Positions 23,805-31,923 of a stretch of 32,974 bases of DNA are shown here, piece after piece. This DNA comes from Acidobacteriota bacterium (GTDB lineage: Bacteria > Acidobacteriota > Terriglobia > Bryobacterales > Bryobacteraceae), in assembly GCA_016871155.1 (NCBI GenBank), contig VFZO01000042.1:1-32974 (forward strand). The letters run 5' to 3'. Within the stretch, counting starts at the first letter, position 1; every line of letters starts with the position of its first letter. The position numbers were made by a program, and so were the translations under genes. The notes beneath the pieces were generated by a model. That model saw only the letters and a program-made list of their open reading frames with translations, had not been told where the DNA came from and searched no databases.

Positions 23805-25172
23805 CTATTCTTCGCCGAGCAGCCGGTACAACGTCGACCGTGTGACACCCAGGATTTCGGCGGCCTTGCTTTTGTTCCCGGTGCAATGCTCCAGCACGGC
23901 CCGCGCATGCCGTTTGCCCAGTTCGTCGAGCGAAACCAGTTCGAGCTCGGCGCTTGGCGCGCTCGAAGCGGCCCCGCCGGGAGCCATGCGTTGGAACTGC
24001 GCCGGCAGGTCGCGGACATCCACCAGAGCGCCATCCGCCATCATACACGCGGAGCCGATCACGTTCTCAAGCTCTCGAATGTTTCCCGGCCATTCATGCC
24101 GCGCCAGAAGCGCCTGCGCGCGCGGCGTCAGGCCAGACAGCGGCTTTCCGTACTCGGTAGCGTAGTGCGCCACGAAGTGCCGCACCAGAAACGGAAAATC
24201 CTCCATCCGGGAGGCCAATTGCGGCAGGTGAATCTCCACCATGCTGAGCCGGTAGTACAAATCCTCGCGGAACTCTCCGCGTCCCATCATCTCTTCCAGG
24301 TCCCGATTCGTCGCGGCAACCACCCGAACGCTGATCTTCTTCGATGCTGTCGCACCGACAGGCTTAATCTCCTGCTGCTGAATCGCGCGAAGTAGCTTGC
24401 TCTGCATGCCGAATGGCAGATCTCCCAATTCGTCCAGAAACAAGGTGCCGCCGTGCGCCGCTTCGAACAGTCCCTTCTTATCGCCCGTCGCGCCGGTGAA
24501 CGATCCCCGGATATGACCGAACATCTCGCTTTCAAACAGCGACTCCGTGATCGCGGAACAATTCGCGATCACGAACGGGCCGCTCGCCACCGGGCTCAGC
24601 ACATGCAGCGCGTGCGCGGCCAACTCCTTGCCGGTGCCCGTCGCGCCGCGTACCAGCGCCACGCGAAAGTGCGGCGCCACACGCCGTATCAGCGCGAATA
24701 CCTCCAGCATCTGTGCGCTGTGCCCGACCATTCCTTGGAACCGGTTTGCGTGCACGAGTTCCGTTTCCAGGCGGGCCGCGTCGATACGGCGCTGGGTCTC
24801 CTCCACTAGTTCCCGGACACGCGCCCGAAGTCCGGCCACGTTCACGGGTTTGGTCAAATAGTCGCACGCGCCTTTCCGCACGGCGGCCACCGCGGACTCC
24901 GGCGTATAGTGCCCCGTCAACAGGATCACGTCCGTCCCCGGCGTATCCCGCGAGATCTCTTCCAGCAGCTCCAACCCATCGGCGTCCGGGAGCTTCAGGT
25001 CCAAAATCACGACATGCGGCCGGTGCGCGGCCAGGGCCGCGCGCGCTTCCGTGCCGCTGGATGCCTTCAAAATCCGGAGCGGCAGCGCCGCCAGCGCGTC
25101 TTCCACCAGGTCGAGACTGAGCGGGTCGTCGTCGACGGCCAACAGGGAGAGCTGCAGATCGGGATTCGCCAT
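23805..25172 (-). CDS. NtrC-family sigma-54-dependent response regulator
   Basis: The product has 455 residues. The receiver (about 8-122) has the acidic pocket AVDDDP, the phospho-acceptor D58 in [12 protein letters not shown], and the lysine of YLTKPV. The AAA+ domain (about 148-375) has Walker A GATGTGKE (176-183), the Walker B region [13 protein letters not shown] (241-253), and [11 protein letters not shown]. The loop that touches sigma-54 reads GSFTGA (223-228), not GAFTGA. A Fis-type helix-turn-helix closes the protein ([19 protein letters not shown]). It should bind upstream elements and drive sigma-54 RNA polymerase when phosphorylated. Divergent to it, across 41 bp, is a hybrid histidine kinase, the likely partner. 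It leads a minus-strand operon ending in ribF and a LacD-like aldolase. Confidence 0.93.
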
Positions 25173-25213: not shown

Positions 25214-27337
25214 ATGAATGCTAGGCCATCGAGACTCCGGCCGCTGGACGAGATGTTCTACGTTCTCATCGGCGCGCTTGTGTTATTGCTGGGCGTCGGT
25301 GCCGTCTACCTGAACTGGCAGAAAGCCCAACAGGCCGAGCTCCAGGCGGAGCGAAGCCGGAGCGCGGTCGCCCAACTGCGGCAGCTCCAGTTGGCGGTCA
25401 GCGACGCCGGCAGCGCCCATCGCGGCTACCTCGTCACCGGCAAAGAGCCCTATCTTGACGCCTATCGGGACGCCATGGCGATCGTCACTTTGCGCCTCAC
25501 GCAACTCCGCGAGACGTCCCATACCTTAGCGCCCATCGCAGAGCGCCTTGTGGAGCTCGAACAACTCGTGGCTTTAAAGGAGGCCGAAATGAAGACCTCC
25601 CTTCAAGCCGCCTACATTGGCGAACGGGAGGCGGCGAACGAGTTCATGGAACAGGGCAGCCTCACTGGCAGCGTCGACAAACTGCGCGCCCTGGTCCGGG
25701 ATGTCGAGCAGGCCACCTTCAAAGAGGGCGAAGATCGAACCGTGGAGACTCGCGACAACATGCGCATGGCGGCCATCCTCGCCGTCTCCTGTTGCGTTAT
25801 CCTCTTCATCCTCTTTGCCGTCGAGAACCAGCGAGTCGCCGCGCGCCACCGTGCCGCCGAGCGTGCCAACGAAGTGAAGTCCGCATTCCTCGCCAGCATG
25901 AGTCACGAACTGCGCACACCGCTCAACGCGGTCATCGGCTACAGCCAGATGCTGCAGGAAGAGGCCGAGGCCGGCGGCCGGAAATCCGACCTCCAGGATC
26001 TGCAGAAAATCGAAACTGCCGGCAAACACCTGTTGGAACTCATCAACGCCATTCTTGAAATGTCGAAGATCGAAGCGGGCAAGGTGGAAGTGTCCGCCAC
26101 GCCGTTCGTCGTCCGCGACATCCTCGACGATGTGCTGGAGCTTGTCCAGCCGCTGGCCCAAAAAAATGGGAACAGCCTGGAGCTGATCGTCGCCCCAGGT
26201 GTCGGCCGCATGCACTCGGACTCCATGAAAATCCGCCAGTGCCTGATCAATCTCCTTAGCAACGCCGTGAAATTCACCGCGAACGGCACCATCAAGCTCC
26301 GCGTGGAGCGCGTGCTGGACGTCAACCGCCCCTACGTTCGGTTCGCCGTTTCCGACACCGGGCCCGGCATCCAACCCAATGAGCTCTCGTTGCTGTTCGA
26401 GCCATTCCATCAGTTGGAGTCCTCGACCGTTCGCTCCAAGGGCCAGGGCACCGGCCTCGGCCTGGCCATCACGCGGCGACTCAGCCGCATGATGGGCGGC
26501 GACACGCTGGTGGACAGCGAAGTCGGCCGTGGCACCACTTTCACACTCTCTCTGCCGGAGGAAATGACGCCGGGTTCCCTGGCCGCCGTGCGCGCCGCGG
26601 AGAAGCCCACGAAACCGGTGGTCCTTGTCATCGATGACGACGTGGCCATTCACGATATGGTCCGCCGTCTGCTCGAAAAGCAGCCGCTCCATGTGGTCAC
26701 AGCCCGGAACGGTGACGAAGGCCTCCGCCTGGCGCGCGAGCTCAAACCGAGGGTGATCACGCTTGACATCGTGATGGACGGCGCCGACGGGTGGGAGATT
26801 CTTCGCAGGTTGAAAAACGATGCCGATCTGGCTTCCATTCCCGTCGTCCTGTTGAGCGTCCTGGATGCGCAAGGCGACCCGCGCGGCTTCATGGCCAGCG
26901 AAGTTCTCAGCAAACCGATCGACGTGGAAAACCTTTCCGGGGCGATTCTCCGTCACGCCACGTCCGGCCGGGCGCACTCGGCTCTCATCGTGGACGACAA
27001 TTCCGATTCGCGCTCCCTGATTCGGAAGCCGCTCGAAAGACTCGGGTGGGATATTCACGAGGCCAGCGACGGAGCCGAGGCGCTGGAGAAGTGCGGCCGT
27101 CTCAAGCCCGGCCTTGTCTTGCTCGATCTGATGATGCCGAACGTGGATGGCTTCGAATTCCTGAGCCGCCTTCGTGCCGCCGAATCGGGCAACCAAACGC
27201 CCGTCCTGGTGGTGACCGCGATGGATTTAAACGCATCGCAACGGGAGCGCCTGCGCCAACAGGCCGCCGCCGTTGTGAGCAAAAGCGCCCTTCGGGGCAA
27301 TGAACTACTCTCCCAAGTGCTCGCAACGCTCAATTAA
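25214..27337 (+). CDS. CHASE3 hybrid histidine kinase with two receiver domains
   Basis: The product has 707 residues. Order: transmembrane segment about 14-33; CHASE3 sensor about 40-175 with [16 protein letters not shown] (69-84); second transmembrane segment about 184-203; HisKA with H231 in [13 protein letters not shown]; HATPase with N box [15 protein letters not shown] and [10 protein letters not shown]; receiver 1 with D518 ([12 protein letters not shown]) and SKPID; receiver 2 with D638 ([11 protein letters not shown]) and a late lysine in VVSKSAL. So the sensor lies outside the cytoplasmic membrane and the output is a phosphorelay. The ATG at 25214 has AAGGG directly beside it; residue 14 (ATG at 25253) is a possible alternative start, but it would leave only a bare membrane segment in front of CHASE3. 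The next gene, a lone receiver, follows after two bases. Confidence 0.92.
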
Positions 27338-27339
27338 AC

Positions 27340-27699
27340 ATGACGATTCTGCTGGTGGAAGACAACGAGATGAATCGCGACATGCTGTCGCGGCGTTTGG
27401 AACGAAAGGGCCATTCGGTGCTGCTCGCGCTAGACGGCGAACAGGCGATTCAAATGACCCGCGAGCACCAGCCGGCCGTCGTGCTCATGGACATGAGCCT
27501 GCCGGTCCTTGACGGCTGGGAGGCCACGCGCCGCCTGAAAGCGGACGCGCAGACTGCCCACATTCCCGTCGTGGCTCTCACGGCCCATGCCCTGCCCGCC
27601 GAACGTGACCGCGCCCTGGAAGCCGGCTGCATCGCGTTTGAAACCAAACCCATCGATTTCCCCAAACTGCTGTCGGTCATCGACACGGTTACAAAATGA
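27340..27699 (+). CDS. single-domain CheY/DivK-like response regulator
   Basis: The product has 119 residues and is a complete receiver: VEDNEMNRDML at the acidic pocket, the phospho-acceptor D51 in VLMDMSLPVLDG, ALTAHA with the switch threonine, and the KPID lysine near residue 108. The NEMNRDML opening is of the DivK/hybrid-kinase type. No output domain is attached, so it works as a phosphate shuttle or by protein contact. It follows the hybrid kinase by two bases and overlaps the next gene by ATGA, so the three are made together. Confidence 0.93.
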   Translation: MTILLVEDNEMNRDMLSRRLERKGHSVLLALDGEQAIQMTREHQPAVVLMDMSLPVLDGWEATRRLKADAQTAHIPVVALTAHALPAERDRALEAGCIAFETKPIDFPKLLSVIDTVTK

Positions 27700-28115
27700 A
27701 GTTAGCGCTCGTGGAGATCGACGATGCGCTTCGAGCGCAACTGGAGAGCTGGAACATCGATTGCGCCGGCGAAACGGATTCTCCAGGACTCGACGCGATT
27801 CTGACAACGACTCCGGTCAATGCACCCGGCGACACACCCGTCCTCGGAGTGAATTCGCCTCTCGGCCAGGACTTTCTCCAAACCCCCTTCCCGCTGAAGG
27901 AACTTGAACTCCGAGTCCAGCGCGCGCGCCAACGCCGCCAAAGCGAAATCGATCTGGTTCACGATCTCCGTTCGCCGCTTAACGCAATGCAGGGCTACGC
28001 CGAGCTGATCTCCGAGTCCGCCTCTGGCGAAGAGAAACGCTTCGCCGAAAAGATCCGTCTCGCTGCGATACAAATGACGGAACGGTTAAGTAGACTTCGC
28101 GATCACGGTGTTTGA
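27696..28115 (+). CDS. pseudo-receiver/HisKA protein lacking an ATPase domain
   Basis: The product has 139 residues; its ATG overlaps the CheY-like stop. Residues 1-80 follow a receiver plan (VEIDDALRAQLESW first; GQDFLQTPFPLKELELRVQ last), but the phospho-acceptor region reads DAILTTTP, so Thr replaces Asp near 38, and QTPF replaces the usual KPF lysine. A HisKA dimerisation helix follows with H89 in LVHDLRSPLNAMQGYAELI. The protein ends after the second HisKA helix (AIQMTERLSRLRDHGV), with no HATPase_c region. The next ATG gene is 87 bp downstream in another frame, so this is not a simple frameshift of a longer kinase. It could be phosphorylated in trans and relay to a receiver, or form mixed dimers with a kinase. 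A remnant of a decayed kinase is the alternative. Confidence 0.75.
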   Translation: MKLALVEIDDALRAQLESWNIDCAGETDSPGLDAILTTTPVNAPGDTPVLGVNSPLGQDFLQTPFPLKELELRVQRARQRRQSEIDLVHDLRSPLNAMQGYAELISESASGEEKRFAEKIRLAAIQMTERLSRLRDHGV

Positions 28116-28175: not shown

Positions 28176-28190
28176 TGGCACGCGACATGC
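28176..28190 (+). promoter_or_regulatory. sigma-54-like -24/-12 element before the sigma-factor gene
   Basis: TGGCAC-N5-ATGC places GG and GC exactly ten bases apart, as sigma-54 promoters need. The -24 half is perfect and the -12 half has one mismatch (ATGC for TTGC). The start of transcription would be about 28202, almost at the ATG, so transcripts would be leaderless or begin translation further in. A sigma-54 activator gene lies 3 kb away. Confidence 0.4.
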
Positions 28191-28202
28191 TCAAAAGAAG
28201 GC

Positions 28203-28748
28203 ATGACCAACGCAATCCTCGAAATGGATGCCCTGAACCCGGTGGCTGCCGTCGAGCTGACTGAATCCGCCTTCGCTGCCGCCTACACCAAAGGATTTTC
28301 CCGCACCGTTCGTTTCCTGCAGTCCAACGGAGTCCAGCAGGAACTGGCCGAGGAGATCTCCCAAGCCGCATGGACCCGCGGTTGGGAATGCCGCGCGCAG
28401 TTGAAGAATCCGGCTGCGTTAGGAGTGTGGGTCAACTCCATCGCCAAGAATTTATTGCGGGTCGACTACCGCCGCCGCAAAGCCGTCGAGGAACTCTCCG
28501 AGGACTCCGCGATCATCGGCGCCTCCACCGATTCGACCGCTCTGGCCGAACTGCTCTCCCACTGCAACCAGGACGACCGCGAATTGTTGGTCAAGCACTA
28601 CATGGAAGGCTGGTCCAGTAACGAACTGGCTCCGGCCCTGGGCATCTCGCCTGTCTCGGTTCGCGTCCGCCTGCTCCGAATCAAGCAGAGCCTTCGCGAA
28701 GCGCTGCAGCTCCGGAACTTTCGAATCGAAGCCGCGGAGGCCGCGTGA
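28203..28748 (+). CDS. ECF-like RNA polymerase sigma factor
   Basis: The product has 181 residues from the ATG at 28203; an ATG at 28224 is also possible because neither has a well-placed ribosome-binding site. The region-2 part covers about residues 20-95 (AAYTKGFSRTVRFLQSNGV, AWTRGWECRAQL, VNSIAKNLLRVDYRRRK). The region-4 part covers about 115-170: DRELLVKHYMEGWSSNELAPALGISPVSVRVRLLRIKQSL, a helix-turn-helix for the -35 element. The short linker and the lack of regions 1 and 3 mark the ECF group. No classical anti-sigma gene with a zinc motif is adjacent. The stop overlaps the GTG of a 50-residue membrane protein, which may take that place. Confidence 0.87.
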   Translation: MTNAILEMDALNPVAAVELTESAFAAAYTKGFSRTVRFLQSNGVQQELAEEISQAAWTRGWECRAQLKNPAALGVWVNSIAKNLLRVDYRRRKAVEELSEDSAIIGASTDSTALAELLSHCNQDDRELLVKHYMEGWSSNELAPALGISPVSVRVRLLRIKQSLREALQLRNFRIEAAEAA

Positions 28749-28907: not shown

Positions 28908-30119
28908 ATGATCACGCGTCGAGGAATCGTGCTCGCGGCGCCCGCCGCCCTGGCCGCATCGAAACAGAAAGCCTTTCATTACGCCGATGTCGAAGCGCGC
29001 ATCGCCCGGCGCGACTTCAAGGGAATCACGAAGGACGATCTTCCAACTCCGGCGCTTGTCGTCGATAAGATCGCGTTCGATAAGAACCTCCGCCACATGG
29101 CGGAACACTGCAAAGCGACCGGCATCGACATCCGGGCGCACTGTAAGATTCACAAAAGTGTGAACATCGCCAAGCAGCAGATCGCGCTTGGCAGCCTCGG
29201 CATCTGCTGCGCCACCATCGCCGAGTCGGAGCTGATGGTCGCGGCGGGCATCCGGAACGTCCTCCACACCTGCCAGCCCGCCGGCAAGAACAAGATTTCC
29301 CGCGCGGTCGACCTCGGTGCGAAGGATCCTACCTTCATGGTGGTCGCCGACGATCCTGAAACCGTGGATCTGCTCAACGAAGCGGCCGCGGCCGCCGGCA
29401 TCCGGCTTCGCACGCTGGTCGACATATACGCCGGCCTTTCGCGCCACGGCCACGCCGCAGGCGCGCCCGGCCTCGCCGTCGCACAGCGAATCGACAAGTC
29501 GAAGAACCTCGTCTTCAGCGGCGTGATGGGTTACTCCGGCGTCGCGTCCCACACCAAGGGCTGGGAGAACCGCCGCGCGCAGTCGCGCAAGGACGTCGGT
29601 CCCGTGGTTGAAACTGCGCTGCTCTGCAAAAAGTCGGGCCTGAACGCGGCCATCGTCACGGGCGGCTCCACCGGCACATACAACATCGACAAGGAAATCG
29701 GCCTCACCGAACTCCAGGCCGGTTCCTACGTATTCATGGACACGGCTTATAACCATATCGGCGCAAAGGCCGGCGTGGAGCGGTACAGCGATTTCGGCAC
29801 CTCGCTGCACGTCCTCACCACCGTCATCAGCCGCAATCACCCGAAACAGGTCACGATCGACGCGGGCAACAAGGCCCTGCTGCGCCCCACCGACCAGGTG
29901 GCCGGCCGCCCGGAAGTGACCGTCGAAAACCAGGGCGCCGAGTTCGGCATTCTGAAGTGGAACGACGGCAATGGATTCAAGCTCGGCGAGAAAGCCGAAT
30001 TGATCACCACCAACCTCGACATGACCACCAACTGCTATGACCGCTACTACGTCTGCGAGGGCGCAAACCTCGTCGACGTCTGGCCCGTCATGGGACGCGC
30101 CGGAGCTCTGCAACGTTGA
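28908..30119 (+). CDS. exported DSD1/D-threonine-aldolase-like protein with altered metal site
   Basis: The product has 403 residues. MITRRGIVLAAPAALAAS is a twin-arginine-type leader, unusual for a PLP enzyme. The barrel follows: LPTPALVVDKIAFDKNL (45-61), the PLP lysine K80 in RAHCKIHKS, LVDIYAGLSRHG, VTGGSTGTYN, and LTELQAGSYVFMD. The C-terminal domain has GAEFG where relatives have E-H-G, and TNLDMTTNCYDRYYVC where D-threonine aldolases have a His-x-Asp metal pair. N369 stands for the histidine; D371 is kept. Such enzymes act on beta-hydroxy-D-amino acids or D-serine; the changed ligands suggest another chemistry or metal-free action. This is a full-length, ordered protein, so a distinct subfamily is likelier than decay. 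The sulfatase gene overlaps its stop (TTGA). Confidence 0.83.
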   Translation: MITRRGIVLAAPAALAASKQKAFHYADVEARIARRDFKGITKDDLPTPALVVDKIAFDKNLRHMAEHCKATGIDIRAHCKIHKSVNIAKQQIALGSLGICCATIAESELMVAAGIRNVLHTCQPAGKNKISRAVDLGAKDPTFMVVADDPETVDLLNEAAAAAGIRLRTLVDIYAGLSRHGHAAGAPGLAVAQRIDKSKNLVFSGVMGYSGVASHTKGWENRRAQSRKDVGPVVETALLCKKSGLNAAIVTGGSTGTYNIDKEIGLTELQAGSYVFMDTAYNHIGAKAGVERYSDFGTSLHVLTTVISRNHPKQVTIDAGNKALLRPTDQVAGRPEVTVENQGAEFGILKWNDGNGFKLGEKAELITTNLDMTTNCYDRYYVCEGANLVDVWPVMGRAGALQR

Positions 30120-31444
30120 TCTCCCGCCGCGCCCTACTCGCCGCCGCGGCGCAGCAGCCGGCCAAACCCAATATCGTTTTCGTACTGGTCGACGATTTGC
30201 GCTTCGACGAGCTCGGCTGCACCGGCCACCCGTTCGCCTCCACGCCGCACTGTGACCGCCTGGCGCGCGAAGGCGCGAACTTCGTCAACGCGTTTTCCGT
30301 CGCTCCGCTGTGCTCGCCCAGCCGCGCTTCGTTTCTCACCGGCCAGTATCCGCACCGTCACGGGATCATCGACAATACCAGCCGCGCCGCCGCCAGCCAC
30401 AAGCTCACCACGTGGCCGCGCCTGCTCCGTGACGCCGGTTACGAAACGGCTTTCATCGGCAAGTGGCACATGGGGAATGACGATTCTCCGCGGCCTGGCT
30501 TCGATACCTGGGTCAGCTTCAAGGGTCAGGGCGAATGCATCGACCCGGAGCTGAACGTCAACGGCAAATCGGTCTCGACACACGGCTACATCACCGACCT
30601 GCTGACCGATCACGCCGTCGATTTCATCGACAAGCGCCGTACCAAACCCTTCTGCGTTTATCTTTCGCACAAAGCCATCCACCCGAACGTGCAGCAGCGG
30701 GACGATGGCAGCGTCACCGCGGCCCTGGGTGGCGCGGAAGACTTCATCCCCGCGCCACGCCACAAAACTCTCTACACCGGCCAGACTCCTCCGCGGCGCG
30801 CGAACTACCGCATAGCTCCCTCCGGCAAGCCCGCGCTGGAAAAGACGCAACAAGCCGCCGAACCGACGTCCGGCGCCGTTATTCTCAACCGCATGCGAAT
30901 GATGAAGGCTGTTGACGATAGTCTGGGGCGCATTCTCGCCGTTCTGGAGAAGAACAACGTCTTGAACAACACGGCGATCATCTTCACAAGCGACCATGGC
31001 TATTTCTACGGAGAGCACGATCTCGGCGCGGAGCGGCGCCTGGCTTACGAAGAGGCCATCCGCATTCCCCTGCTCATCCGGTATCCGGCGCTCTTCCCAA
31101 AACCCGTCCGCCCGCCCGGTCTTACCCTGAGTATCGACATCGCTCCAACCGCGCTGCAAATGGCGCAGGCAATGATTCCGCCGTCCATGCAAGGCTTGCG
31201 CATTCAGGCGGCGAAACGGGACCATTTTCAGATTGAATACAGCTCCGACACGGTCTTCGCTCGCATCCGCAACATGGGCTACCGCGCCGTGCGCGGCACC
31301 AACTGGAAGTACATCGAGTACAAGGAACTTGCCGGCAGCGACGAGTTCTACGACCTGGCGAACGACCCCTTCGAATTGCATAACCAGATCGCCAATCCAA
31401 ATTACAAAACCCAAATCGACAAAGCCCGCCGCCTTTTGCAATAA
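30116..31444 (+). CDS. type I sulfatase with Tat-like leader
   Basis: The product has 442 residues from the TTG at 30116, which overlaps the upstream stop; no ATG or GTG precedes the conserved region in frame. MISRRALLAAAAQQ is a short twin-arginine-like leader. Sulfatase marks: PNIVFVLVDDLRFDELG with metal aspartates D26/D27, the formylglycine motif LCSPSRASFLTG with C66 and R70, KWHMGND, and FTSDHGYFYGEHDLG. The cysteine type needs a formylglycine-generating enzyme, which is not in the window. It probably removes sulfate esters from carbohydrates or other exported substrates. It is translationally linked to the exported DSD1-like protein, so both may act on one periplasmic substrate; that is inference. 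Confidence 0.9.
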   Translation: MISRRALLAAAAQQPAKPNIVFVLVDDLRFDELGCTGHPFASTPHCDRLAREGANFVNAFSVAPLCSPSRASFLTGQYPHRHGIIDNTSRAAASHKLTTWPRLLRDAGYETAFIGKWHMGNDDSPRPGFDTWVSFKGQGECIDPELNVNGKSVSTHGYITDLLTDHAVDFIDKRRTKPFCVYLSHKAIHPNVQQRDDGSVTAALGGAEDFIPAPRHKTLYTGQTPPRRANYRIAPSGKPALEKTQQAAEPTSGAVILNRMRMMKAVDDSLGRILAVLEKNNVLNNTAIIFTSDHGYFYGEHDLGAERRLAYEEAIRIPLLIRYPALFPKPVRPPGLTLSIDIAPTALQMAQAMIPPSMQGLRIQAAKRDHFQIEYSSDTVFARIRNMGYRAVRGTNWKYIEYKELAGSDEFYDLANDPFELHNQIANPNYKTQIDKARRLLQ

Positions 31445-31455
31445 TTCCTAGCACG

Positions 31456-31923
31456 ATGCCCAAAGTCAAACCCATCCCAAAGGGCTACCACACGGTCACG
31501 ACGGCCGTGACCGTTTCCGGAGCCAAGGCTTTCATTGGCTTTTGCAAGAAGGCGCTGGGGGCCAAGGAGGTGCTCCACCTGCCTGGTCCGGGCGGAATGG
31601 TCGTTCACGCCGAATTGGTCATCGGCGACACACACTTGATGGCCGGCGATGAGATGCCGCAGATGGGCAACAAATCCGCACGGACACTTGGGGGCTCACC
31701 GTTGACGTTGCACGTCTATGTGCCCAACTGCGACAAGGCCATCGCAAAGGCCGTCAAGCACGGCGCCACCGTCACGATGCCCGCCTCCGATCAGTTCTGG
31801 GGCGACCGTTATGGCCGGGTCGTCGATCCATGGGGCAATAACTGGGCCTTTGCCACCCATATTGAAGACGTCACGCCGCGCGAAATGAAAAAGCGCACGG
31901 CCAAACTCTTTGGCGGTGCCTAG
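31456..31923 (+). CDS. VOC/glyoxalase-fold protein (PhnB-like)
   Basis: The product has 155 residues and starts MPKVKPIPKGYHTVTTAVTV, as PhnB-like VOC proteins do. The paired beta-alpha-beta3 modules follow: FIGFCKKALGAKEVL, HAELVIGDTHLMAGDEMP, then LTLHVYVPNCDKAIAKAVKHGA, and the closing GDRYGRVVDPWGNNWAFATH. Candidate metal residues H51 and D128 lie in these strands. The function of the group is unsettled. The last eight bases overlap the next gene. Confidence 0.85.
   Translation: MPKVKPIPKGYHTVTTAVTVSGAKAFIGFCKKALGAKEVLHLPGPGGMVVHAELVIGDTHLMAGDEMPQMGNKSARTLGGSPLTLHVYVPNCDKAIAKAVKHGATVTMPASDQFWGDRYGRVVDPWGNNWAFATHIEDVTPREMKKRTAKLFGGA

Follow-up and report, generated by a model that had tools for sequence, protein, structure and literature searches.

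The small gene at 27696-28115 of the window (the whole stretch of DNA analysed here, 32,974 nucleotides) encodes a stand-alone HisKA hairpin protein. The gene is real, is under selection and does not resemble a decaying kinase. Judged from sequence comparison, the likeliest job of the hairpin, to which we give a probability of roughly 55%, would be to carry phosphate between the neighbouring CheY-like receiver and a second receiver, in the manner of Spo0B or ChpT. A histidine phosphotransfer protein derived from HisKA had been suggested in the original prediction; this reading appears to be the best-supported one and is partly supported by the comparison of genomes.

We infer the following relay, including the dimerisation of the hairpin, the phosphotransfer, its direction and the NtrC-type activator as acceptor. 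The hairpin would dimerise to form a four-helix bundle and act as a histidine phosphotransferase resembling Spo0B and ChpT, without an ATPase domain. The membrane kinase would phosphorylate the CheY-like receiver, and the phosphoryl group of CheY~P would be passed to H89. From H89~P it would be handed on to another receiver. The likeliest one is the receiver of the divergent NtrC-type activator, which together with sigma-54 would turn on the adjacent ECF sigma gene. The features of the window are as follows.

23805-25172, minus strand: divergent NtrC-type sigma-54 activator with a receiver and a GSFTGA loop (Pfam); proposed terminal acceptor
25214-27337, plus strand: CHASE3-HisKA-HATPase-REC-REC hybrid sensor kinase (Pfam); proposed phosphate source
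27340-27699, plus strand: CheY-like single-domain receiver with intact catalytic residues (Response_reg, E 5.4e-24); proposed Spo0F-like intermediate
27696-28115, plus strand: stand-alone HisKA (DHp) hairpin protein, 139 aa (HisKA match; homologues in 15 other genomes of the genus)
27696-27893, plus strand: variable N-terminal alpha/beta part, residues 1-66, possibly a shrunken receiver; missing in the short clade
27894-28103, plus strand: two-helix hairpin, residues 67-136, containing the HisKA match (Pfam; predicted structure with pLDDT block means of 87-96 over residues 81-130)
28176-28191, plus strand: sigma-54-type -24/-12 element (GG-N10-GC; TGGCAC-N5-TTGCW with one mismatch)
28203-28748, plus strand: gene for an ECF-type sigma factor, proposed as the target of the cascade, with a homologue in 19/19 genomes of the genus; the true start may lie downstream

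The small gene in the window and in the genus

In the Pfam search, PF00512 (HisKA) matched residues 86-136 of the window protein with an E-value of 6.2e-9 and 36.2 bits against a cut-off of 26.9, which the relatives at L069, L071, L081 and L083 also passed. H89 lies in the motif HDLRSPLNA and is encoded by CAC at 27960-27962. No HATPase match was found in the window protein or in the four relatives run, and the window protein stops three residues past its second predicted helix. PF01627 (HPt) was not matched at E<=1, in a search whose filters drop most matches above 0.1, and the SPOB family was not matched at E<=1. The 139-residue frame with an intact HisKA helix, H89 and no ATPase domain was as originally predicted. 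So was the coupling of the gene to a lone CheY-like receiver gene, the TGA of which overlaps the ATG of the small gene by 4 bp (ATGA), and to an upstream double-receiver hybrid kinase, recognised by Pfam.

The structure of the window protein, predicted with an alignment of 16 sequences, had a mean pLDDT of 86.2 and a pTM of 0.68. Two helices were modelled at residues 67-108 and 112-136, preceded by a small N-terminal part of b-a-b-b-b order. A Foldseek search of this model against the PDB returned nothing at E<=0.001; DHp domains (ZraS, CpxA, ERS1 and EnvZ) appeared among its rows, mixed with unrelated structures. Since helical hairpins are common folds, the DHp rows in Foldseek and VIA-align give weak support for the identity of the hairpin. 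The profile search of PDB sequences matched histidine kinases from E 4.2e-7.

The conservation of the gene was analysed in 101 genomes (its own and 100 relatives), of which 19 belong to the genus. A homologue was found in 16 of these 19; a strong short-frame match was present in 15 of the 18 other genus members, and all 15 loci were compared. Chance is excluded, because these 15 further genomes have the homologue at the same place. The order NtrC, kinase, CheY, small gene and ECF sigma gene was complete in 13 of the 16 loci, the window included, the other three (L069, L073 and L080) being cut by contig ends. The frame was open in all 16 loci, and its start overlapped the stop of the CheY gene (NTGA) in all 16. 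Homologues of the same size beside CheY-like genes, which the original prediction had proposed to look for, thus occur in 16 of the 19 genomes; an intact full-length kinase in that position, which it had named as a sign of decay, was seen in 0/16.

Three genomes of the genus remain. In G012, the tail of the small gene was recognised at a contig end (its translation was read by eye). In G013 and G014, only 109 and 191 bases of contig, respectively, are left upstream of the aligned sigma start, and no trace of the small gene was seen in them. No CheY orthologue was found in these three genomes, the best matches having 39-43% identity versus at least 65% in the other genus members; the candidates scored were 44 of 89 in G012, all 39 in G013 and 44 of 72 in G014. 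For the three window proteins further downstream (28908-31923), the stretches compared around the 15 loci of the genus, several of them short, gave no match at E<=1e-4. The sigma gene seems to be the last gene of the conserved block.

The homologues occur in two size forms. The long form, with the N-terminal part, has nine members of 123-139 aa; the short form has seven members of 67-87 aa, which start just before the hairpin. In the alignment, H89, D90, L91, R92, P94, L95, A97, G100, Y101, A102, R115, I120, R121, A123, L131 and R135 were invariant in 16/16, as were M1 and an aligned Glu. What is conserved in the small protein is the HisKA hairpin.

The residue at H+4 is Ser in the nine long members, including the window protein, Thr in six of the seven short members and Asn in the seventh. 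The own genome has 33 HisKA places; the H+1/H+4 pairs read at 28 of them were E/T (20), E/N (4), D/N (2), E/S (1) and E/Q (1); the combination of Asp and Ser found in the long clade occurred at none of these 28. This position bears on the question of whether the hairpin instead acts on CheY~P (or NtrC~P) as a phosphatase or phosphate sink, which would drain the signal with no through-relay. HisKA domains dephosphorylate receivers, Asn or Thr at H+4 being key in the proteins tested (PMC3510030), and a phosphatase role has been proposed as possible for archaeal HisKA proteins without HATPase (PMC5847659). The Thr and Asn of the short clade are consistent with such activity. However, the Ser of the long members is not among the substitutions described at H+4 in the accessible text of that study (PMC3510030). 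The phosphorylatable His is invariant, which also speaks against a sink, though this residue is described as contributory rather than essential to HisKA phosphatase activity (PMC12632262). We consider the phosphatase unlikely, and a transferring hairpin remains our preferred reading.

The N-terminal part had been described as a pseudo-receiver that has lost its phospho-acceptor (TTTP for DxxP) and its lysine. Response_reg was not matched by this part at E<=1 in Pfam, and its profile, built from nine sequences, aligned to two receiver profiles (CheY; mixed) in hhalign with probabilities of only 0.05% and 1.7%. In seven relatives, the stretch aligned with TTTP is TAN-, TPN-, SVA-, TLV- or TQV-, and L069 lacks it; the altered phospho-acceptor is therefore a property of the window sequence alone. 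The missing lysine, on the other hand, is true of all nine long members, in which the Pro of "TPF" is retained and the preceding residue is T, L, F or P, never Lys. The predicted fold has no a2, a3 or a4. In VIA-align, the part was superimposed on CpxR receivers with Z 5.9 (82-84 residues, rmsd 4.8-5.0) and on EutV, a receiver protein, with Z 5.8, tied with unrelated a/b domains, namely aminoacyl-tRNA synthetase domains at 5.7-5.8. An origin as a shrunken receiver is possible. The pseudo-receiver half of the prediction appears weak and, because the seven short members lack the whole part, not essential.

Origin of the hairpin and selection

A tree built from 83 HisKA hairpins placed the small proteins in one group with a support of 100/93, separate from the HisKA domains of the neighbouring kinases and of the sampled own-genome kinases; the tree was based on 81 columns, with weak resolution and several long branches. 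Wider searches covered the family (200 genomes) and the class (299 genomes), in overlapping draws, with at most the best 31 and 20 candidates per genome scored, respectively. Among the matches listed, which in the family draw extended down to E ~4e-10, no stand-alone copy of the hairpin was found outside the genus. Genus members scored 102.7-117.2 bits, and the next best among the matches listed, in a frame of 589 aa, scored 51.3 bits. Four frames shorter than 250 aa (212-248 aa) were listed outside the genus, all with ATPase-domain motifs as judged by eye. A single-protein scan of named genomes gave 30 loci matching the HisKA part only, 28 in Qipengyuania or Erythrobacter, one in an Erythrobacteraceae bacterium and one in a Legionellales MAG. 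The own genome has six Hpt domains above the cut-off elsewhere, one of them within a 137-aa frame, and the need for the hairpin protein is therefore not proven.

The tree also bears on a reading in which the hairpin regulates the neighbouring kinase by pairing with its DHp domain, either breaking the dimer or being trans-phosphorylated, as in RetS-GacS. The solved DHp co-complex of RetS and GacS (7n0e) was among the structural and profile matches, and in every locus with enough contig the kinase gene lies two genes upstream of the small gene. The HisKA domains of the neighbouring kinases nevertheless fall into a group separate from the small hairpins, and the start-stop overlap is with the CheY gene; neither is a strong point. 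We regard this pairing as distinctly unlikely, and the dimer-breaking partner, which had also been suggested in the original prediction, gained no support.

Selection was analysed by dN/dS (Nei-Gojobori) in fourteen pairs, which share sequences and are not independent. The hairpin is under purifying selection in seven of the eight close pairs, with dN/dS of 0.04-0.08: 0.039 (L071/L072), 0.047 (L071/L073), 0.064 (L072/L073), 0.069 (L074/L075), 0.040 (L080/L081), 0.081 (L080/L082) and 0.066 (L081/L082). The exceptional close pair, L077/L078, gave 0.61. In the six more distant pairs, the ratio was 0.13-0.25 in four, and dS was saturated in two.

These values bear on whether the gene is a functionless, decaying remnant of a REC-HisKA-HATPase kinase. 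The N-terminal part would fit such a remnant: its dN/dS lies at 0.11-0.59 across the six computable pairs, its length is variable, and seven relatives lack it. The purifying selection on the hairpin, the frame open in every locus, the invariant H-box and the single group in the tree all stand against it, and we find a remnant hardly tenable. Decay of a full-length kinase at this place is largely refuted by conservation, selection and the tree.

The neighbouring kinase, CheY and NtrC genes

The kinases of the long clade have two receivers in eight of nine loci, L069 being cut. In the short clade, the kinases of L077-L079 stop after the ATPase domain, at 462 aa (L077 and L079 by Pfam, L078 by length and alignment), and that of L080 is cut by a contig end. 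Receivers are recognisable in the kinases of L081-L083 (by Pfam in L081 and L083), with the acidic pair and other key residues lost as judged by eye. These three C-termini appear to be recent pseudo-receivers, in a clade where other kinases have no receivers left. The CheY acidic pair, Asp, Thr and Lys are retained in 16/16, and the Asp, Thr, Lys and G[AS]FTGA loop of NtrC in 14/14 of the loci that reach it; its acidic pair was read in 13 of the 14. Because the receivers of the short-clade kinases are lost or degenerate while the CheY and NtrC motifs are intact, the parts that persist, namely the kinase core, CheY, hairpin and NtrC, would make up the part list of a relay of the Spo0F-Spo0B type. 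As an alternative, the receiver-less kinase of L077-L079 could phosphorylate NtrC directly.

The relay may extend throughout the genus. A bare hairpin of 67-139 aa would act between CheY and NtrC and lead to the ECF sigma gene. Spo0F-Spo0B-Spo0A would then have been reinvented independently and in minimal form, and in one clade the kinase would have become receiver-less while the CheY-hairpin pair was kept. This proposal is tentative, and we place its odds somewhat below even.

The surroundings of sixteen relatives of the CheY protein (L128-L143; 54-61% identity) were also compared; two of these belong to the genus and most to other genera. Eleven of the 16 adjoin a kinase resembling P0003. 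Several are followed by REC-fused outputs (cyclase, SpoIIE-like and GGDEF-EAL). Five proteins in four genomes have an N-terminal HisKA without an adjacent ATPase domain, then a second hairpin and a receiver; those that are uncut continue with a cyclase, a kinase or a PAS domain. Four of the five were recognised by Pfam, and that of L129, cut by a contig end, by eye.

L128, 5595-7319, plus strand: HisKA-hairpin-receiver protein
L129, 1-887, minus strand: HisKA-hairpin-receiver protein
L134, 5700-7352, plus strand: HisKA-hairpin-receiver protein
L138, 5274-6626, plus strand: HisKA-hairpin-receiver protein
L138, 7702-9402, plus strand: HisKA-hairpin-receiver protein

The model of one of these N-terminal parts had four helices and matched generic four-helix bundles. 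Such parts are possibly a single-chain, HPt-like unit made of two hairpins.

The ECF sigma gene and its sigma-54-type element

The window element, TGGCACGCGACATGCT at 28176-28191, has one mismatch to TGGCAC-N5-TTGCW. The pattern GG-N10-GC (as TGG-N9-TGC), which was picked after the window and the alignment had been seen, occurs once in the gap before the sigma gene in 15/15 loci, 52-81 bases past the stop of the small gene. In Markov-resampled sequence, the chance of TGG-N9-TGC was 0.8-11% per locus; the loci are related, and these values do not combine into a joint probability. TGGCAC-N5-TTGCW was found within two mismatches in 11/15 loci, failing in L075, L077, L078 and L079. The whole window holds three such one-mismatch consensus matches versus 0.96 expected, a number reached in 5 of 100 shuffles. 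The genome has rpoN. Before the kinase gene, no forward match to a sigma-54-type element was found in the 13 loci examined, and L071 and L072 each had one reverse-strand match. G014 had no sigma-54-type site in the 191 bases upstream of its sigma gene.

ECF genes switched on by sigma-54 activators have precedents in HrpS-hrpL and QseF-rpoE (PMC8103513). The element alone, however, does not tie NtrC to the relay, because GG-N10-GC also lies within 250 bases of 7/10 more distant sigma homologues or paralogues outside the operon (L118-L127), a count made with no shuffle control. Sigma factors of this group may more generally be under sigma-54 control. In L119 (7293-12411), from the same-family genome G024, a related sigma gene (43%; the match contains one counted stop) is accompanied by genes for a kinase, for an NtrC of 54% identity and for a single receiver; no hairpin gene was seen in this set.

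The sigma gene stands next to the small gene wherever the contig reaches, and it would be conceivable that the hairpin binds the ECF sigma factor or the activator in an anti-sigma-like way, with H89 as a phospho-switch. NepR is a small helical protein. As an anti-sigma protein, it acts together with PhyR and EcfG (PMC5898713). The hairpin has the sequence of a standard HisKA, nothing examined points to sigma binding, and a conserved promoter-like element of its own precedes the sigma gene. We consider an anti-sigma role very unlikely.

Comparison with known systems

Spo0B has a C-terminal ATPase-like domain, which is missing from the hairpin protein (139 aa). The Spo0 genes are dispersed, whereas the hairpin gene adjoins the receiver gene, and the output proposed here is an NtrC/sigma-54 step. 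In its proposed position, the hairpin would be like Spo0B, a kinase-like phosphotransferase that acts after the single-domain receiver Spo0F and before a DNA-binding regulator (PMC6136694). Spo0B, ChpT and PhyT are described as kinase-derived proteins that move phosphate between receivers (PMC5898713, PMC3433190, PMC6136694). With ChpT, the protein shares the DHp hairpin, the candidate phospho-His and the Pro at H+5, and ChpT receives its phosphate from a hybrid kinase (PMC3433190, PMC9981736), as the hairpin would. An atypical ATPase-fold domain is retained in ChpT, whereas the hairpin protein has none.

The third case is PhyT of Sphingomonas, which we take to be the same protein as PhyP. The PhyT/SdrG/PhyR system has an order similar to the proposed one, from a single-domain receiver through a kinase-derived phosphotransferase to a regulator of an ECF sigma factor (PMC5898713). 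Unlike the hairpin, PhyP is described as membrane-anchored, with an HRxxN motif and a degenerated ATPase domain, and the output of the system is sigma-factor mimicry rather than the sigma-54 transcription proposed here (PMC5898713). The job proposed for the hairpin, moving phosphoryl groups between receivers, is also that of HPt (PF01627); the hairpin, however, does not match that family, has two helices and would need to dimerise.

The original prediction spoke of a possible unrecognised phosphorelay part; to call it unrecognised goes too far. HisKA proteins without HATPase have already been classed as phosphotransfer or incomplete-kinase proteins in P2CS and in an archaeal survey, with a phosphotransfer or phosphatase role proposed (PMC2716373, PMC4618731, PMC5847659). 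The P2CS phosphotransfer class is defined by HisKA or HPT in the absence of HATPase and a receiver (PMC2716373). The window protein has this composition, and it has no HATPase_c after HisKA, by which a histidine kinase is recognised. Proteins with HisKA and no HATPase have usually been filed as incomplete or misannotated kinases, their function being left open (PMC5847659). The archaeal ones differ from the hairpin in having N-terminal sensor domains, and the accessible text of that survey describes no operon-level relay with a CheY partner (PMC5847659).

To these classes, the comparison within the genus adds a defined gene set, a stripped form of 67-87 aa, a natural experiment and a probable transcriptional output. 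Whether phosphotransfer can be performed by a DHp hairpin alone thereby becomes directly testable with four proteins. In the proposed model, by analogy, the hairpin protein would act like Spo0B, ChpT and PhyT but without the ATPase remnant that they have kept.
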